A stretch of DNA of 64,000 nt from Anas platyrhynchos (taxonomy: Eukaryota > Chordata > Aves > Anseriformes > Anatidae), in the NCBI RefSeq assembly GCF_047663525.1, contig NC_092592.1, positions 21,938,501-22,002,500 on the forward strand. The letters run 5' to 3'. Both the position numbers and the translations under genes were made by a program. Positions 2,044 through 42,205 of this stretch are shown one piece after another (the stretch's first letter is position 1; every line of letters starts with the position of its first letter). Below the pieces are notes generated by a model that was given only the letters and a program-made list of their open reading frames with translations, was not told where the DNA came from and searched no databases.

Positions 2044-2050
2044 GTTTATA

Positions 2051-2266
2051 ATGGAACTCACATCTTTGCCTAAATTTCTGTGGACAAATGACAACAAACT
2101 TCTTCATCACCATTTTCCGGATGTATTGGCTACTGTTCACACCACACAAGACATTCCCGAAGAAGCTGTTTTTGGACCATGTATGCTCCAAAACACCCTA
2201 GTGGACACTGTAGCTTTTATTGCCCTCAAGTGTTCTGAAAGACGGAGCATCCATTACGTATTCAAG
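2051..2266 (+). CDS. ZNF488: ZNF488 coding exon 1 (PR domain, N-terminal half)
   Basis: The exon begins at 2044, after an acceptor with a T-rich tract (CATTTTACAG), and has a 7-base leader before ATG at 2051. It encodes residues 1-72 (starts MELTSLPKFLW, ends HYVFK) and stops in phase 0 before the donor AAG|GTAGGA at 2267. The N-terminal half of the PR domain, including the IPEEAVFGPC core, lies here. An in-frame upstream extension to 1985 is intronic. Confidence 0.9.
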
Positions 2267-5200
2267 GTAGGAGAACGCAGCAAGTCATGTCAGACAGGAT
2301 CACACCATCTCGCAGGAGGTGACTATGTCAGGGGGTAGATTTTTGTTCTGTTCAGCACAACTAACAGCTCCTCCAAAAGGGAGAAGTAGCCAGTGTGTTT
2401 CTAATTATGAGCTGTATACTGGAGGGACCTCAGTGAAAACTGGCTCCTTTGCAGGAATACAAAGTTCCACTGCTGTGCTGACTATTGATGACTTGGCTTT
2501 TAAGTTTAGTCCAAAAAGGAGCCCTGTTTTTTTTTTCTCATCCTCTTGGAGACCCTAATTTGAACTCCTTGGTCCAATTTGTATGCTTGGGTAAAGACAA
2601 TGGCCACCATTGGCACAGGTTGTTCTTCCCAGCCAGCCATTTACCCCAGCAAAGCAAACCTGCCCCTAAGCTGTCTTTCCCCTTTGAGTTCCTCTGAGCC
2701 TTACAGCCTCTCGTGGGGTTAGCCTCCTGGATCCAAGGAACAGCCTTATCTTCACCCTTCTTCTCCAGCCTCTGTCAAGGAAGCCAGACCATGTCCATTG
2801 CACAGCTCTGACTGAACCTGTTGTGCAGTAAAGCCCCTCCCTCATTTATGAATGTAAAAGATTCATATGAGGGATTTCCATCCCAGGAAGGGGGTGGACT
2901 TGCATCTCTTGTAGTGTCTCTGCATGCACGGAAAAACTGAAGCAGGCTCATGCTTGCAGTTAAGTGTACCCAGGTCTTCTGTTCTGCCCTGTATTCCTCC
3001 CCACCTCCTTCAAACTCTCTCAGCTCCTTCCCTGCAGGCCTGGTTCCTGGAGGAGCTGTGTTCCCTTTGACTTTGCTTAGAGCTCCGGGTGGGTACTTGG
3101 TATTTCTGAAACACTGAAACTAATAAATGACAGCCTCTGTCAAAGCTATTAGTTGCAAACACTGTGTGTGTGGGTGGGTGTGCTTGTGTTGCTGTCAGAC
3201 TTTTGGATTTCTCAATCATTGTTAATTACCACGGCGTTTAGAGAGAACCAGTTACAGGGCATGCTAATTTATTTTCTCCCTTATAATAATTAACTCTTAT
3301 ACTAATGCCCCCTTAATGTTTTATTCTTTTATTCAAGCTCCTACCGTGGTCATACTTTTCATGGTAGGTAATCGTCAAACTGAGCTAAACACAGAGAAAG
3401 AAAACCAAAATACTGTTTCTGATACAAAACACCAATGAATGGCTGCCCTGCAATTAGTGGAAAACAAAGAGCTATACATTGCTTGGGGTGAAATTTGGAT
3501 CATACTTGTCATTAGACATTTTTCATTTCCAAATTTCTTCCTTTCAAAACAATGACTTAGTGCTTCAAAAATTAGTTGAGGCTTTTTATGTGTATAAGTG
3601 TTGCCCTTGATCGCCCTGTGTTTCAGCCTCCGAGCTATGAAAATCTTCCCCATCCTTCAAATACTGCTGAGGACATAGATCTGCTGTGGTAAAAACCAAG
3701 GAAAAAACCTATAAATAAATAAATCATTCCCTATTCAAAGCAAATGCAATCAATTAAATAAGATGGGAGCCACACACTGAATGAGGAAGACAAAACCAAA
3801 TGTTTTACAGTTATATTATTTCCAGAGCATGGTCAACCTGTGACTAAATGACTCAGGAGTCCTGTGGAGAAAGGCATTTATGCAACTGAGGGCTATGTTG
3901 TAACATGTACACAGAAGGGAGATTTAATTTGAGCAGTAGGCTTAATATTATGTTTTTAACTTTTGAGTGCCTGACCTTCCAACCTAAGTGAAATTTTCAA
4001 ATTAAGCTGTTTGGTATTCCTGAATACACACATACTGAAAGTAAATCAACCCCTCACTACACTCGGAAGTAATGTAATGAAAAGTATTAATCAAATGAGT
4101 TTTTGTCTGTTCGTATACCCTGAAATGAATTTAAGCTATTTATCGAAGGAAGAAAGGGGAATATGTCAATGTCATTTTATTTCTGAAAAAGGAAAGTGAT
4201 AATAAAAGTACTTCCTAGCTGTATTTGTTAAAATCTAATATTTACATAATTTAGCCAGTAGTAAATGTGGAAGTTGTCTCCTTGGGATGTCGACTCAAAT
4301 AATCAAAATGATTCCTAATTTACCCCTCTTCTGACACATCCCATGGGATTGAGACCCCTTCTTACAGAGGATCACGCCATCTGTACCTCTAAGATCCACA
4401 CCCAACGCAGCCTCAGGAGACAACCAGCATCAGCAGAGGAGAGCACCTTGCCATGAGGGGGCTGGAGATGGGCCAAGGGAGCAGCCCTGGCACTGCTGGC
4501 CCAGAGCAGGTTCATGTGAAGAATGGTGTCCCCTTCTGGTCCCACTCAGTGCTCCCAGAGCTCTAAGCACTCACATGAGGGAAGCCTTCTCCCTCCCATG
4601 ACTTTGAGTTTGATTACAGCCGTGTGTGATTTGGGGTTGCAGCTTTGGCATGGGCTCTGTGTGAGGCAGAAAATAGGCTTTTTCTTGAATTTCATGGAAA
4701 TCTATTTGGGGTCACAGGACTTCAAACTTGCATTTTTTGTGTCCTGTTTCACAGGTGGATGTTACGTCTGTGCACAGTCCTACAGGGCTGCCTTGGATGA
4801 GACTTGTACAAGCAGCTGCCAATAGCAAGGAGCAAAACTTAGAAGCTTACTTAGAAAACAGTCAGTTATATTATCGCTCTACCAGGAAAATCAACAAAAA
4901 TGAGGAGCTGCTTGTCTGGTATGATGAGGAGCTTTCCAGCCTCTTGGGTTTCAATGAGATAAAAGCTCAAAGTCCCCAAAATGGTAAGTACCAGACTAAT
5001 GGTTCTGCGGGGGTCACTGAGGACTGAAGTGAGTCTGCAACATTAGCATGGGTGATCCTGTAATGCAGGAAATAAAACCAGTCTAAATCCTTAGCAGTCA
5101 GGTAAGAAAAGAGAAAAAAAAAGAGCAATCAGCTAAGAAAACATTCTGTTTTAGGGACTGAGCTGGAGGCATCCAGTGAGAAGAAATTTGTAGTTCTCTA

Positions 5201-6808
5201 TACCAGTTTAGTTGTTACTTTCCAACAGAGGACAGTGCACTAGGGAGCAGTGCTGAAGTTTTTAAACTGTGCAATGGAGATCTATGCACCTGACTACCTT
5301 GGACTCCTAAAAGCCTAAAATATCCATTGGAAATATGCCTTTAAAATAAAAATATGCCTTTAAAATAGCAATTTTATCTAATACAAACATGGCTGGAGAA
5401 TCTAAATGAGAGCATTTCTGCAAGGAGCACATGGAGGTAAATACAAGTGAACCATTTTCCATAACAGCAGGGGACCTGACTCTGCACTGGCATTACCTTT
5501 ACCATGTATAGTCTTGTATGACATAAGAGATGTTTCTGGGTTTGTGTTTTGTTTGTTTGTGTCAACAGCAGGGTCAGGATTTGCATCCATCCATGATTCT
5601 AACTTTGCAAAACTCATCATTTGTTGTCTGTTTCTGCAGAGCTGAGATGCCAAGAATGCAACCGAGTCTTTAAATGTGAGCATTCGTATCTCTCCCATGT
5701 CCGCTTCCTATGCGGACCAGAGAAGAGTGCCCTGCTATGGAGAAACTTCCAGGATGGCAAGACTGAAAAAGGCAACTTAGAGGACCAGACCACAAATTTC
5801 CACAGCCTGGCAAGGGATCTAGAGGTCAAAATGGCAGCTCATAAAGATGATGCCCATGGTCTCACTGGAGAAAAGAGAGCAAAACTAGAAGAGGCTGAGA
5901 ACAACAGGAGCAGAAAAACAGTGTTGTTGGAGAAAACAAATAACCTGAGTGAGGGACGTAACTGTGGGGGCAAGGAAGAAGTTGGGGGAGAGCGCTCACT
6001 GGCAGGTTCTTTCTGGAAGCCTAGTTCAGGGAGGCAATCAGCTAGGAAGGATGCTTTTGAGCAGAAGCAGAGTGCTTTCACTGAGGTCAGGAGGGTGAAA
6101 GAGAAGATGAGGAATGAGAAACCCAAGGAATCAGAAGAGGAGGATGACACAGTCCCAGCTAGTAAGGAGCAGGTATCAAAGGAAGTGTTGCTGAACTCCT
6201 CTGGCAGTGCATTCTCCTTTGTGTGGCCCACCAGAGCCCGAGGAGAGCAGAAGAGTGCTTTCAGCAAGCCTAGTAAATGTCTAGCAGAAAGAGCTGCAAT
6301 AAATTCTTCTCATCCCATGAGTGAGTCACCAAAGAGCCTGGGGGAGCTGTCCGGCTTCATTGCCACCACAGACATCATGTGCTGCAGCACTCTTCTCAAT
6401 TCCAAGTTCTTCGTCAGTGATTTGTGTAATGCTCAGATGCTGCAGACTAGCATCACTCGGAGCAATGTTTTCCCATATACCTCAGACCTGTGGTCCAAAC
6501 AAGCAGGAGGACAGTTACAAAACACAAGCACCACTTCTTCCTCCTCCTCCTCCTCTTCCTTGACTCTTCTTCCCCCTACCTTCACGTCATTTGGAGTGGC
6601 TGCCCAGAACTGGTGTGCCAAATGCAACCTGTCCTTTCGCATGACATCTGATTTAGTCTTCCACATGCGGTCACATCACAAAAAAGAATACTCCTCAACT
6701 GAATCCCAGAGCAAGAGGAGACGAGAGGAGAAGCTAACATGTCCAATTTGTCATGAGTACTTCCGAGAACGCCATCATTTATCCCGGCACATGACCTCTC
6801 ACAATTAG
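2051..6808 (+). CDS. ZNF488: ZNF488 (PRDM8-like PR-domain zinc-finger protein), whole coding span
   Basis: Join 2051-2266, 4755-4983 and 5640-6808: 1614 coding bases, 537 aa plus stop, with every junction GT-AG and in phase. Seen: a PR (SET-like) domain in residues 1 to about 140 (segments IPEEAVFGPC, FIALKCSERRS, EQNLEAYLENSQLYYRS, EELLVWYDEEL); a C2HC finger with C152, C155, H168, C173; a charged Lys/Glu-rich middle; a serine run; then two C2H2 fingers (C474/C477/H490/H494 and C516/C519/H532/H536) joined by a basic KRRREEK linker and ending HMTSHN. This is the full PRDM8 architecture. The position beside RBP3 identifies the ZNF488 paralogue rather than PRDM8 itself. Family knowledge: a nuclear transcriptional repressor; ZNF488 is linked to oligodendrocyte and neural differentiation, and PRDM8 to neural and retinal circuits. 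The start at 2051 is the first ATG after the acceptor at 2043, and it aligns with the PRDM8 N terminus. The gene converges on RBP3. Confidence 0.92.
4755..4983 (+). CDS. ZNF488: ZNF488 coding exon 2 (PR domain, C-terminal half)
   Basis: Acceptor TTTCACAG ends at 4754; donor ATG|GTAAGT follows 4983 and is near-perfect consensus. The exon encodes residues 73-148 plus the first base of codon 149 (phase 1). It carries the conserved PRDM8-type segments PWMRLVQAA, EQNLEAYLENSQLYYRS and NEELLVWYDEEL, which close the PR fold. Confidence 0.9.
5331..5367 (+). repeat. Two-copy 19-bp tandem duplication in ZNF488 intron 2
   Basis: AAATATGCCTTTAAAATA occurs twice with a 19-bp period. The copies are identical, so the duplication is probably recent. 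Confidence 0.85.
5640..6808 (+). CDS. ZNF488: ZNF488 terminal coding exon (three zinc fingers)
   Basis: Acceptor TTTCTGCAG ends at 5639. The exon restores codon 149 (Glu) and reads to TAG at 6806-6808. It holds the C2HC finger (LRCQECNRVFKCEHSYLSH), the acidic/basic disordered centre with short conserved motifs resembling PRDM8 (SAFTEVRRVKEK, KSAFSKPSK), a TCC/TCT serine microsatellite near 6536-6560, and the two C-terminal C2H2 fingers. The open frame continues upstream of 5640 to 5621, but that part is polypyrimidine tract and intron. Confidence 0.93.
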
Positions 6809-25800: not shown

Positions 25801-28800
25801 ACAATCAGAACAACTTTCCACTGTCACTACAAAAGGAGTTGCTTGTTGTTCTAGTGTAATAGAATTAGAAATCAGGTATGGAAATCTTATATATAAAAAT
25901 CTATTGCAAAGTATGGGGCTATGTGTTTTGCAGGTCTATGCATTTACTCTGGACCAACCGCATTTTTCTCAGATTACAAACTCAGTTTGTAACCAGTGGG
26001 TTTCTGCATTAATTTATTACAGCTTGAAAAGCCGTACTACTCTTCTATGATCATGGAGATGAGATATTTTCACTGTAACAGGGAAGCCCTGTATCAGCAT
26101 CTTTTCTTGTGGTAGCCACAGAAAGAGATCCACAGCCTGAAGGCCATCGTCCCCAGAAAGTATGCATCCAGAACTACCATCTACTAACACAAGCTACTAC
26201 CCTGGTTTGCCTTAGTGTCAGAGAGAATTCTGTCTCCAAAACCCACTGAGGCACAGGCTTCTTTAATGGATACAGGTAAATCCTGACGGGTTGATGATAT
26301 GGTTTAGAAACAAGGTAAGATATCTGACTCAGTGCTCCCATTATAACTGGCATCAGTATAGCTGGCTACAGGAGAACTGTACCTGTTTTGGCATGATTCC
26401 TGGGATGTTGTCCTTGGCATGTTCAGGGATGTAGAGCATTTTGAGGTGTTCATCATCAGAAAGAGCTTGCAGGTTGGCAGTCACCTTCCTGGCCAACTCC
26501 TCTTCTGAATTAATCCTTTTGTAATTTCCTTTGTTGATATTCTTGGTGAGATTGGATGCTATAACAGCCCCAATGTCCACAAAAGCATAATTTTCTGCCA
26601 CAAGTTTACCTACAGTTTGAAGTGTCTGTGGCACCTGGGCACGCAGGTTGGCAATGTGCTGGGCTACAGCCATGGCTTCACTGGCTTGGATGGTGATGTG
26701 TGGCTCCACCCCAGACACACTCCACACTTTGCCAGTGACTGGGCTGAGAACCACTTGGCTGGGGATGGAGGCATACAGGGAGCTATTACCAACACGATAA
26801 ATGCCCACTGAGAGGGAACCTCCTACTGTGGGCTCACCGATAACTGTGGCCCGGTGTAGATCCTTCATAGAGCGAGTGAAGGCTTCAGCTGCTGAGCCAC
26901 TCATATGGCTTGTGAGGATGTAGACATCCTTGAGGGAGCCGTATCTCTTGCCAGTCACCTGAGGGAGAGTCCATACCTCAGTGCTGCGGGAGGTACTACG
27001 ATCAAAGACAGTGTAGAGGTGTTGCCGAGGCTCAGGCTCAAAGAAGTAGGAACAAAGTATTGGGACAGCAGTGGAGTAGCCACCCGTGTTGTACCTCATG
27101 TCAATAATCATGGCATCTGTGTTAACCAGCTTGTTCCACACCATCTGCACGAGCTGAGGCCCAATGGCCTTCACTGTTTCTGCCTCAGCCATCATATCAA
27201 AGCGAAGGTAGCCCAGGTTGCCTGGCAGTACCTCAATTTTGAATAGCGCCTCAATGATATAGCTGAGCTCCTCAGGGCTGGGAATCATGTTGGGAAGCTG
27301 TTCTTCTGGTGTTGGTTCCACATGGCTGTGGAAAACATGAAGCCGATGGTCTCCTGAGGCCTCCTGCAAGTCACTGGTAAGCTGGGAAGCCAATGTCTCA
27401 AAGTCTACAGCTGATCGATAACCTCCTTGGGCCCGTTTGGTGCTGAGCATAGCACTGGCCTTCCCAGCCACTTCTGGGATGGCATAGTGAGCTTCTAGGA
27501 GTTGCCCAGTACTTTCCAAAAGCATCCCCATCTTCCTGTGAAAAGCTAGCACCTCTTCAGCCTTCTCCAGTGCGTCCTCAGCCAGCACTATGGCATCAGG
27601 CACAACTCCTCCGCCCATCCAGCTTTCTCCATGGTTGTCAATGAAGGTGATAACTGGTACTGTGATAGTTAGGCCACGGGTTATTCCCTGCTCAGGCTGC
27701 AGCAGAGGGAACGTAGAGGTGTGTGAGAGGCTGCCTGCTGTGATCTCCCCAATCAGTGTGGCACGGCCCAGGGACTGCATGAGGTAAGCAAACTCCTCAG
27801 CAGCTGTAGCAGTGTGGTGGCTGGTGAGCAGGTAGATGCCACGCTGAGCTCCGTAGGGCTGGGCCAGCAGTTCTGCCTGGCTGTTGTGCTCCTGCGTGTG
27901 GTTGGTGCGCCTGTCATAGGTTGTGAAGAGATGGACAGGGCCTACAGCGGGGTCTTGGAAATAGGAAAGTAGCACAGGCACAGCAGAGGAGGAAGGGCCT
28001 CCAGGGTTGTAGCGTAGGTCCACGATCAGGTTCTCTGTATTTTGGAGGGGCTCCCACACTTTTTTTACTATGTAAGGTCCCAGTTTAGCAAGCACAGAGG
28101 CATCAGCAAACTCATCGAAGCGCATGTAGCCCACATTGCCTGGCAACACTGACACCTTGAAGACAGTATCCACCAAAGCATGCAGCAGTTGCTCATTGTC
28201 AGGCAAGTTGGCTGCCACTGCAATTGGTGTCTCAGCAGGGGGGACAGCAGTTTCACCTGGCATCATGACTCGGACCAACAGGCGAGGGTCCTCGGATAAG
28301 GTCTGCATCTCAGTGTTGAGCTTGGTGGCCAAGTCCTCTGCTGACTGCACAGAAGAGAAGTCAGAAGTGGTGAGGTGCCGCAGAAGCACTGGCACACGCT
28401 CCACTAAGCTGTAATAGTCCTTTAATATGTCTATGAGGCGGGTTAGAGTGCCAGGCACTGCTCTGCGCACTGCCAGGATATCCAAGGATTTCTGCAAGGC
28501 TTGCTCTGCCTCAGTAGCCACACATGGCATCACTCCATTAACCTCCCAGCTCTGCCCAACCCCACTCAAGGGGCTCACAGACCGTGACACGGGAACCATT
28601 AGATAAAAATTAGAGAGGCCAATACGCAGTTTCTGGATGTCCAGTGATCCCCCAGCTGTCTTCTCCCCAACAGTGATAGCTCTGTTCATGTGCTTGAGGA
28701 TGTAAGCCACATCTTCAGCCACTCCTGTGGTGTGGCGGCTGATCAAAACAATGACATCCTTTTCTTTGCTGTACCTCTCTCCCAACACTTTCGGCAATGT

Positions 28801-29430
28801 CCATATCTCTGTGGTGGTGTTGGAGGGCCGATAGTATACAGTCTCAACATGCAGCATCTTGTCTGCTTCATGCAAGTATGAGATGATGAAGGGAAGTCCG
28901 GAGATCTGTCCTCCAGTGCTGTGACGAAGATCTATCACCAGGGCAGATGTATTTATTAGTGTCTTCCATACCTTGTCCACCAGAAAAGCTCCAACTTTCT
29001 GCACAACATCCTGTCCTATGATATAATCAATCCTCAGGTAGCCAACATTGCCCTCCAGCTTGTCATATACAATCACATGCTCAATAAGACTCAGGAGTTG
29101 TTCACGAGTGGGGGAAGCCTCAGTTTCTTTTTCAGGAGCTGCATGTGGTGATGGCTCGTAGGAAATCACCAGTCTTGGGTCATTCAGAGCACCTTGCACT
29201 CCAGCTGTCAAGACGCTGGCCAGCAGTTTTGGATCTGAGATGTCCAGGATCTCCCCACTCTTGATGGCTTGTTCAATGGCTTCTTGCATTCCCACTAGGT
29301 TTTCAGGATAGCAGTAGTTATCCAGTAGAACTTTAGCCATGTCCAGCACTAGAGTTGGCTGAAAAATTTCCTCAGCTGATACGCTGCACATAATCAGAGA
29401 ATAAAATAGGAAAAAATGTGTTCTGAACAT
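13493..29430 (-). CDS. RBP3: RBP3, interphotoreceptor retinoid-binding protein (IRBP), whole coding span
   Basis: Join (minus strand) 29430-26383, 18812-18622, 15775-15633, 13821-13493: 3711 coding bases, 1236 aa (human 1247). All junctions are GT-AG and in phase. A hydrophobic signal peptide (about residues 1-19) precedes four tandem modules of about 300 aa (roughly 22-324, 325-634, 635-932, 933-1236). Each has the C-terminal-processing-protease/crotonase-like fold signature: GN(V/L/I)GYLRFD, (I/V)DLRYNxGG, ILTSxxTxxAAEEF, GRAxxIGExTxGG. Potential N-glycosylation sites include N204, N510, N882 and N960. Function (family knowledge): a secreted soluble glycoprotein of the subretinal space that carries and protects all-trans and 11-cis retinoids and fatty acids between photoreceptors, Mueller glia and pigment epithelium. 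Modules 1-3 lie in one exon; introns interrupt only module 4, the classical IRBP structure. No frameshift or premature stop is seen. Convergent with ZNF488 and tandem with GDF2. Confidence 0.97.
15633..15775 (-). CDS. RBP3: RBP3 exon 3 (module 4)
   Basis: 143 bp between acceptor CTGAAAAG and donor CTCAAAG|GTAAAA. It encodes [20 protein letters not shown], then [20 protein letters not shown], then WTQPQLK (residues 1081-1127), with split codons on both sides. It supplies the GG loop and the central strand of module 4. Confidence 0.95.
16430..16451. repeat. Short inverted repeat in RBP3 intron 2
   Basis: CTGCTATGT and ACATAGCAG form perfect 9-bp arms around a 4-base ATAC centre. No function is implied. 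Confidence 0.6.
18622..18812 (-). CDS. RBP3: RBP3 exon 2 (module 4)
   Basis: 191 bp between acceptor CTTTCAG and donor ATGAG|GTAAAC. It encodes residues 1017-1080: [18 protein letters not shown], then [19 protein letters not shown], then [10 protein letters not shown], with Arg 1080 split by the intron. It is read in phase with exon 1. The sequence aligns with human module 4 almost residue for residue. Confidence 0.95.
21800..22585 (-). mobile_element. Ancient CR1 LINE fragment (3' region, inverted)
   Basis: Read on the minus strand, this segment follows the 3' portion of a sauropsid CR1 consensus as I know it over nearly 800 bp. Recognisable landmarks on the + strand are AGTGATTGAGATTACGTG, CCTGAAGACTGTTTTCAT, CCCCTCAGTTTTCTTTTCTC, AGTGTGCTCCAGCTGAGGC and GTGCAGCTAATTATTCC. 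It has many substitutions and indels, so it is old and non-functional. It sits inside RBP3 intron 1. The open frame at 21961-22335 is only the complement of this element. Confidence 0.8.
22702..22716 (+). promoter_or_regulatory. Candidate CTCF-binding motif in RBP3 intron 1
   Basis: ACAGCAGATGGCGCT fits the degenerate CTCF core (CCASYAGRKGGCRS) at all but its first base. It lies just beyond the old CR1 fragment in a locally GC-richer, repeat-free stretch. This is a motif match only. Confidence 0.4.
25142..25165. repeat. (TTTA)n tetranucleotide repeat in RBP3 intron 1
   Basis: About six TTTA units; a second similar array is at 30948-30972 upstream of RBP3. Other simple tracts in this intron are T20 at 20604-20623, A18 at 20735-20752, a CAA/CCA-rich stretch at 20841-20897 and A21 at 24411-24431. 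Confidence 0.85.
26383..29430 (-). CDS. RBP3: RBP3 exon 1 coding part (modules 1-3 and start of module 4)
   Basis: ATG at 29428-29430 opens a signal peptide ([19 protein letters not shown]). The exon codes for 1016 residues and ends in phase 0 at CCAAAACAG before the donor GTACAG (26382). The open frame runs nine codons into the intron, which is not coding. A 3-kb uninterrupted exon holding three repeats is diagnostic for tetrapod RBP3. Confidence 0.97.
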
Positions 29431-29570
29431 TTTGTACTTGTATAGAATAAAAAATAAAATAGTATTTAGGAAAGAAGTCAGAAGCTCTTATCAGTCAGGA
29501 TGAGCATAGCTCTCCGCTGACCCTCTGTGAATCACACTGAATTCCCTGTGATGATTCCAGGTGCACTGAA

Positions 29571-40601: not shown

Positions 40602-41542
40602 CTACCTGCAGCCACATTCTGCCACTTTCATCCCTTCATAGTTATATATCAACGTGGGCACCCCAGCATCATCCTTATAGAGAATGGAGATGGAATCCAA
40701 TTTGGTTGGAACACAGCAGGCCTTAGAAGCTTTTTTCGGGTTTTGGAGGTGCACCAGAGTTTGGACAATAGCATGTTTTGTTGGGGTAACGTTATCTGTC
40801 AGAGGGAAGAAGCAACCTCCTTTGCACTCAAAAGCCTCGTAGTCTTTGGGAGCGATGATCCAGGAATCCCAGCCAATCTCCTCAAAGTTCACATGGAGGG
40901 AAGTTCTCCGGCAGTGGTTGGCTCCGATGCTTCTCTTGCTTCTGGATGAATGCCGGCGGGGTCCAGTGACGGCCTTTCCCTGTCCCGGTTCTTCTTCTTC
41001 AGATGAAGTGTTGTTCTTTCCTAATTTATTTAGTACACTTTCTTGTTCATGAACAATCATCTCCCGGAGCTCCACCCTGGTCTCTTTTGTCCTATTGCTG
41101 CGGTCATTGGAGAACACTATTAACAGGGGCAGATTTTTATTGTCAGGAGTAACACTGATATCCAGCTTTCCACAATTGAAACCACCCAGAGCCTTACTCT
41201 CAATAACAACCTCTAGCTTGTTTTTAGTCTTCATTTTGTCTGCCCTGACCCATCTTTTCACAGCGCTGGATACTTCAAACATCTCCCAGCCACACTCCCG
41301 GATATTGTGGGAAACGAGGAAAGATTTTGTGCTTTCTGGGTTTTCCCAGTGGTCTCCATCTAGAACATCATAAATGACCATGTTGCCTTCCAGTCTAGAC
41401 AGAGACCCAACTTCCCTGTGACAGGAGATAAAAATTCTCAGTTCAGCTCTGGTGATTTCCTCATATCGTGGAATAGAGATGTTGAAGAGCAAGATGTGTT
41501 TCTGAAATGGATTTTCTTCTGCTGAAGCTAAAGAAACAACAT
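40602..41542 (-). CDS. GDF2: GDF2 exon 2 coding part (prodomain and mature ligand)
   Basis: Acceptor CCTATTGCAG ends at 41543. The first two bases complete Asp 116, followed by [20 protein letters not shown]. The exon carries most of the prodomain, the RSKR processing site and the entire cystine-knot domain, and stops with TAG at 40602-40604. An apparent start at 41492 is an internal TTG codon, not a true initiator. Confidence 0.95.
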
Positions 41543-42205
41543 CTGCAATAGGAAATTAAAAGACGTGGTTACAGTGCTTCTGACTGTCCAAATAACTTGC
41601 TTTTCAAAGATGCAGGATATATTTTGGGAGTGAAATAAGAACATGGTTACCTAGTAATAAAAAAAATAATCCTGTCTTCTGGCCAGGTTTCAGGAGCAGG
41701 GAGCAAAAAGCCAAAATGGAGGTCCCTGATGGTGGTGGTATTTTCACTAAGATTTCATGGTCAGGTGAGTATGGGGAGGAGTGGAGGGATAGTATCAAGA
41801 GTCTGCCTAGAAGAAGGTGTGGGTGATGCTGGTCAATAGTCGGTGAGTAAATAAAGCACCTAAAGCGTCCAGATTTAGCATTTTCCTGAAGAGATTTTTA
41901 CAGAAAGGATTCTCAAAAAAACAGTGGGAATTTACCACTGATCATCATGCAATGGGATGAACTGCTCCCCCAGTATGGAGAAGTATAGTACGTACTTGTC
42001 TCTTTCTAGAATTAATTGTGCTGAGGCTTTTGCCTCAGCTGTCTTCAGATAGCTTTGAAAGCAGCTTGGGTTACTGAGAGTTAGGGGAAATAGAAAAGCA
42101 TTTGAAAAACCTGAATCGAAGCTTGAGGGTCTGTCTAATTTGGCGCTTGGTGATAAACAGCCTTTCATGTTTGGGTCTGTTCCAGGCTGGACTCACTGAG
42201 CTTGT

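Follow-up and report, generated by a model that had tools for sequence, protein, structure and literature searches.

A ZNF488-type gene of the duck Anas platyrhynchos is predicted to encode a PR domain and to be a second PRDM8-type gene

The window analyzed here is the whole 64,000-nucleotide stretch C6:21938501-22002500 of Anas platyrhynchos (assembly GCF_047663525.1, contig NC_092592.1). Near its start lies a gene of the ZNF488 type, and the exons of three further genes, used as synteny markers, follow at greater distance. The gene model joins 2051-2266, 4755-4983, and 5640-6808 on the forward strand into a single open frame of 537 codons plus a stop. The features of the gene are as follows.

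2044..2266, forward strand: first coding exon, with its acceptor at 2041-2043 and ATG at 2051; residues 1-72, the N-terminal half of the PR domain
2135..4946, forward strand: PR domain (Pfam PF21549), residues 29-136, split by the intron 2267-4754
4755..4983, forward strand: second coding exon; residues 73-148 plus base 1 of codon 149, the C-terminal half of the PR domain
4872..4874, forward strand: Tyr112, equivalent to PRDM9 Tyr341 by alignment
4920..4925, forward strand: Tyr128 followed by Asp129; Tyr128 is the equivalent of the catalytic PRDM9 Tyr357
5640..6808, forward strand: third coding exon, including the stop; the remainder of codon 149 to residue 537, with the linker and three zinc fingers
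5648..5713, forward strand: C2HC zinc finger, residues 152-173, with Cys/His spacing equal to that of PRDM8; unreported by Pfam
5831..5833, forward strand: in-frame Met213, whose start context is strong (A at -3, G at +4) and which could begin a form lacking the PR domain
6059..6271, forward strand: linker with three SAF motifs (residues 293, 338, and 354) in the same order as the three in PRDM8
6545..6805, forward strand: C-terminal block, residues 451-537, with two C2H2 fingers (6614-6679 and 6740-6802); 67/86 residues (78%) are identical to PRDM8

All splice sites of the three-exon model are GT-AG, the intron phases are 0 and 1, and there is no premature stop. With a slash marking the junction, the exon-1 donor after 2266 reads AAG/gtagga, and the exon-2 acceptor before 4755 reads ttcacag/GTG. 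The exon-2 donor after 4983 is ATG/gtaagt, and the exon-3 acceptor before 5640 is tctgcag/A. The initial annotation had described the first two exons as free of stops, bounded by clean splice sites, and in phase with the finger exon; its coordinates prove exact, with phases of 0 and 1. The acceptor lies seven bases before the ATG, and an upstream non-coding first exon is therefore expected.

The PR domain is recognized well above threshold. The domain search of the 537-residue product, which had been proposed as a check, matched PF21549 (PRDM2_PR) to residues 29-136 at 64.2 bits against a cut-off of 27 (E 1.2e-17, profile positions 16-120 of 123). Exon 2 alone also exceeds the Pfam PR cut-off, with 60.4 bits in a six-frame search. 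The Pfam SET match to the same product is marginal (23.6 bits versus a cut-off of 22.4). When the first 181 residues were searched against the sequences of the Protein Data Bank (PDB) at E <= 0.01, all 13 distinct sequences found were PRDM PR-domain entries. A profile of the window protein and PRDM8 found 17 distinct sequences among solved structures at E <= 0.001, 14 through the PR region and three through the finger region only.

The zinc fingers lie in the same predicted protein as the PR domain: one frame runs through three exons, and PRDM8 has the same structure. Pfam lists the last finger only, which falls short of the cut-off of 27 when the whole protein is scanned (22.6 bits) and passes it for exon 3 alone (30.2 bits). 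The other two fingers were identified from their Cys/His spacing and their match to PRDM8. Between the fingers, the linker is only 27% identical to that of PRDM8 (65/241), and SAF may represent a conserved short binding motif within it. At least three SAF motifs per linker arise in 4/20,000 shuffles of the window linker and in 1/20,000 shuffles of the PRDM8 linker.

Six-frame searches of the window's own assembly (1.26 Gb, 42 contigs) identify PRDM8 as the closest relative. It is the best non-self match of exon 1 (43% identity, E 2.7e-14) and of exon 2 (55%, E 9.2e-17), and the sole non-self match of exon 3 (62% over query 273-388, E 1.0e-38). The runner-up for exon 2 is a C2 locus at E 2.0e-5, which is read as PRDM14. 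The locus read as PRDM8 lies at C4:49198849-49201040 on the minus strand and encodes 622 residues in three coding exons; its ATG follows an acceptor by two bases. Both coding introns fall at homologous codons in the two genes, in phases 0 and 1.

The PR exons were claimed to align with PRDM8 throughout, and the alignment does begin at the first Met and extend through all of exon 2. Identity by part is 32/72 in exon 1, 39/76 in exon 2, 62/108 over the Pfam PR span, and 11/26 in the first finger region. The shared characters are the PR domain, the C2HC finger, the three linker SAF motifs, the two C-terminal C2H2 fingers, and the positions and phases of the introns. The two proteins differ in length (622 versus 537 residues), and over the PR domain and first finger, they are 46% identical. 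PRDM8 also has a Gly-rich linker and carries Gly after the catalytic Tyr, where the window gene has Asp.

A tree was built from 15 PR-exon segments, comprising the ZNF488-type gene, PRDM8, and 13/20 other PR matches; the seven left out are mostly second exons of the same genes. Each row with stops entered as the longest of its stop-free pieces. The sole starred pair, with support of 99/98, is that of the ZNF488-type gene and PRDM8. The segments are short, few other forks are resolved, and none of the rows was identified as PRDM12 or PRDM13. By blastp among the exon-2 segments, a set with four other rows misread, the ZNF488-type gene and PRDM8 are also mutual best matches.

The neighboring genes were compared as well. 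The synteny markers in the window are as follows.

26353..29487, reverse strand: large exon of RBP3 (IRBP); Pfam PF11918 at 408 bits, in four stretches
40602..41555, reverse strand: GDF2-like TGF-beta exon; Pfam TGF_beta at 109 bits
53300..54352, reverse strand: GDF10-like exon, whose strongest paralog lies near PRDM8

The names GDF2 and GDF10 are our own assignments. Human ZNF488 has RBP3, GDF2, and GDF10 as neighbors, and the position of the duck gene fits that of a ZNF488 orthologue. The best non-self match of the GDF10 exon is C4:48958504-48959454, at 233.4 bits and about 240 kb from PRDM8; the next match scores 48.8 bits. We take this paralog to be BMP3. Because the 250 kb or less around PRDM8 makes up about 0.04% of the genome, chance placement of the paralog is unlikely. 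The ZNF488-type gene and PRDM8 therefore look like genome-duplication sisters, and the simplest reading is that one block was copied when the genomes of early vertebrates duplicated. Annexin exons also appear on both chromosomes, about 87 kb upstream of the ZNF488-type gene (C6) and about 2.5 Mb away from PRDM8 (C4). As a separate observation, one TAA falls inside the C4 stretch aligned to GDF10 and is probably the exon end.

Taken with the gene structure and the paralogy, these neighbors agree with the proposal in the initial annotation of a second PRDM8-type gene in which the PR and zinc-finger layout is retained. The gene is very probably the bird orthologue of ZNF488, a sister of PRDM8 from early vertebrate genome duplication that still encodes a full PRDM protein; a corepressor mechanism is inferred as part of this reading. 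The predicted protein would keep the order of PR domain, C2HC finger, linker, and two C2H2 fingers. In progenitors of the ventral neural tube and of oligodendrocytes, it would be a corepressor of transcription. Its fingers would place it on chromatin together with a bHLH partner of the Olig family, as happens for PRDM8 and BHLHE22 (Bhlhb5). The PR domain would recruit other proteins and have no more than weak methyltransferase activity. In mammals, only the finger portion would remain, equivalent to the PR-minus forms of some other PRDM genes.

PRDM8 acts with Bhlhb5 as a repressor (PMC4620005). Chick Znf488 is reported together with olig2 in the p2/pMN domain (PMC6588721, citing Rahimi 2016), and a reference title in the same paper describes an oligodendrocyte-specific zinc-finger regulator that cooperates with Olig2 (PMC6588721). 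This title, the chick expression, and the weak enzyme features of the domain favor a corepressor that has a bHLH partner and uses its PR domain for recruitment. The regulator of that title is presumably Zfp488. PRDM8 is itself present in the ventral spinal cord of mouse (PMC2585159) and human (PMC10907391).

Mammalian ZNF488/Zfp488 resembles the duck gene in its neighbors RBP3, GDF2, and GDF10 and in its C-terminal finger module. It differs in that the human protein is about 340 residues long and is not known to carry a PR domain. Loss of the PR domain in mammals is plausible. The two also share a setting in neural progenitors and oligodendrocytes (PMC6588721).

The zebrafish gene prdm8a is suspected to be the ZNF488 orthologue because fish chromosome 13 presumably carries rbp3. 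A survey of SET-domain genes lists zebrafish prdm8a on chromosome 13 and prdm8b on chromosome 21 (PMC2200798). These resemble the duck genes as a PRDM8-type pair, but the survey derives both from one ancestral prdm8 and treats both as orthologous to human PRDM8 (PMC2200798). The zebrafish prdm8 mutant affects motor neuron and oligodendrocyte fate, according to a review (PMC8666443). If prdm8a is ZNF488, this effect might belong to the ZNF488-type gene.

A ZNF488-type gene is easily missed in surveys that search with human PR domains if its mammalian orthologue offers no PR domain as a query. A 2007 survey of this kind assigned 16 PRDM genes to birds by orthology (PMC2082429), and for mice and humans, a 2026 review puts the number of members at nineteen (PMC13113268). 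In the available text of papers naming both, ZNF488 or Zfp488 is not linked to PRDM8 or to a PR domain; the terms stand apart, in gene lists, in other contexts, or in a reference title, and database annotation or other papers may record the link. ZNF488, Zfp488, and PRDM are unmentioned in PMC4232242, and PMC10658979 contains none of the domain terms sought in it.

Among the other explanations, a two-promoter arrangement fares best, though it is regarded as possible rather than probable. The gene would make a PR-plus form and, from a promoter in intron 2, a PR-minus form starting at Met213, of which mammals kept the second; this is compatible with the orthologue reading. The start context of Met213 favors it, and this Met would correspond to the start of human ZNF488. 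The distribution of CpG-rich sequence is against it: within the 32 kb scanned (20 kb upstream of the window and its first 12 kb), no CpG-rich stretch lies near exon 3, and all CpG-rich bins lie 9.7-13.5 kb upstream of the window. PRDM2, 3, and 16 each have both PR-plus and PR-minus forms (PMC2082429), a precedent for such an arrangement. The CpG-rich stretch itself, at C6:21925001-21928750, spans about 3.7 kb, and no protein was recognized by eye among its open frames. It may be a candidate promoter of the ZNF488-type gene, an assignment made by inference only.

An enzymatic role, in which the PR domain would methylate histones and mammals would have lost that activity, is unlikely. The equivalents of PRDM9 Tyr357 and Tyr341 are retained (with PRDM9 numbering derived from chain positions), but other positions speak against activity. 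Cys44 occupies the position of PRDM9 Tyr276, and PRDM8 is alike here. The catalytic Tyr is followed by Asp129 (4923-4925), where PRDM8, PRDM9, and PRDM14 carry Gly. The H/RxxNHxC motif of SET enzymes is absent from the PR domain, which has RLVQAAA at residues 88-94 instead, and PRDM8 likewise lacks it. Most PR domains are without this motif (PMC4620005), and the catalytic role is that of PRDM9 Tyr357 (PMC4919437). In favor of an enzyme, PRDM8 has been reported to methylate H3K9 (PMC4620005). A PRDM8-like recruiting role appears more likely than a lineage-unique enzyme.

The PR exons were also considered for signs of decay. Over the PR span, the ZNF488-type gene differs from PRDM8 at 39/20/67% of codon positions 1/2/3, as if shaped by purifying selection. 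The end branches of the tree are 0.48 for the ZNF488-type gene and 0.35 for PRDM8, the former 1.4 times the latter. From the codon-position bias and these branches, the PR domain of the ZNF488-type gene does not seem to have been released from constraint. In a neutral simulation with substitutions only and 4000 replicates per level, 148 codons stayed stop-free in 25, 8, 3.5, 1.4, and 0.75% of cases at 0.1, 0.2, 0.3, 0.45, and 0.6 changes per site. It is quite improbable that exons 1 and 2 are a decaying or unused relic, open by chance or recently lost, with a working protein that starts at Met213 as in mammals: the start context there and Asp129 in place of a conserved Gly would suit a relic, but the splice sites and phases are intact, the divergence is strongly biased by codon position, the end branch is 0.48 versus 0.35 for PRDM8, and 0.75% of simulated relics remain stop-free at the 0.6 neutral changes per site assumed since the bird-mammal split, even without insertions and deletions.

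Several points weigh against the reading of the gene as a ZNF488 orthologue with a working PR domain. The Asp that replaces Gly next to the catalytic Tyr is a hint that function has relaxed or changed. A stop-free frame is by itself weak evidence of constraint, and constraint was measured against one paralog, a two-sequence comparison that cannot apportion a share to the duck lineage. The joining of the exons into a PR-plus-finger product is predicted from DNA. Reciprocity from PRDM8 back to the ZNF488-type gene refers to the exon-2 segments. The annexin pairing is loose and adds little because C6 and C4 carry further annexins. Expression in the ventral spinal cord cannot separate the ZNF488-type gene from PRDM8, since PRDM8 is also present there. 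The features of human ZNF488 and the human gene order enter the comparison as background.

On balance, it seems probable that ZNF488 is an uncounted PRDM gene, that the vertebrate ancestor had two PRDM8-type genes, and that birds keep both intact, while mammals made one permanently PR-minus. If this is true, the control of oligodendrocytes by mammalian ZNF488 is a natural experiment on a PRDM8-type factor without its PR domain. Data on ZNF488 from birds, and perhaps from fish, would then inform PRDM8-type function, and the contribution of the PR domain could be tested by comparing birds with mammals. Matched partnerships would also be suggested, of PRDM8 with BHLHE22 and of ZNF488 with OLIG2.

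One further PR-domain match, on C1, contains two stops and was considered as a pseudogene. The stops fall in the first five codons of the match, before the open stretch of the exon, and this reading was dropped because both most likely lie in intron sequence.

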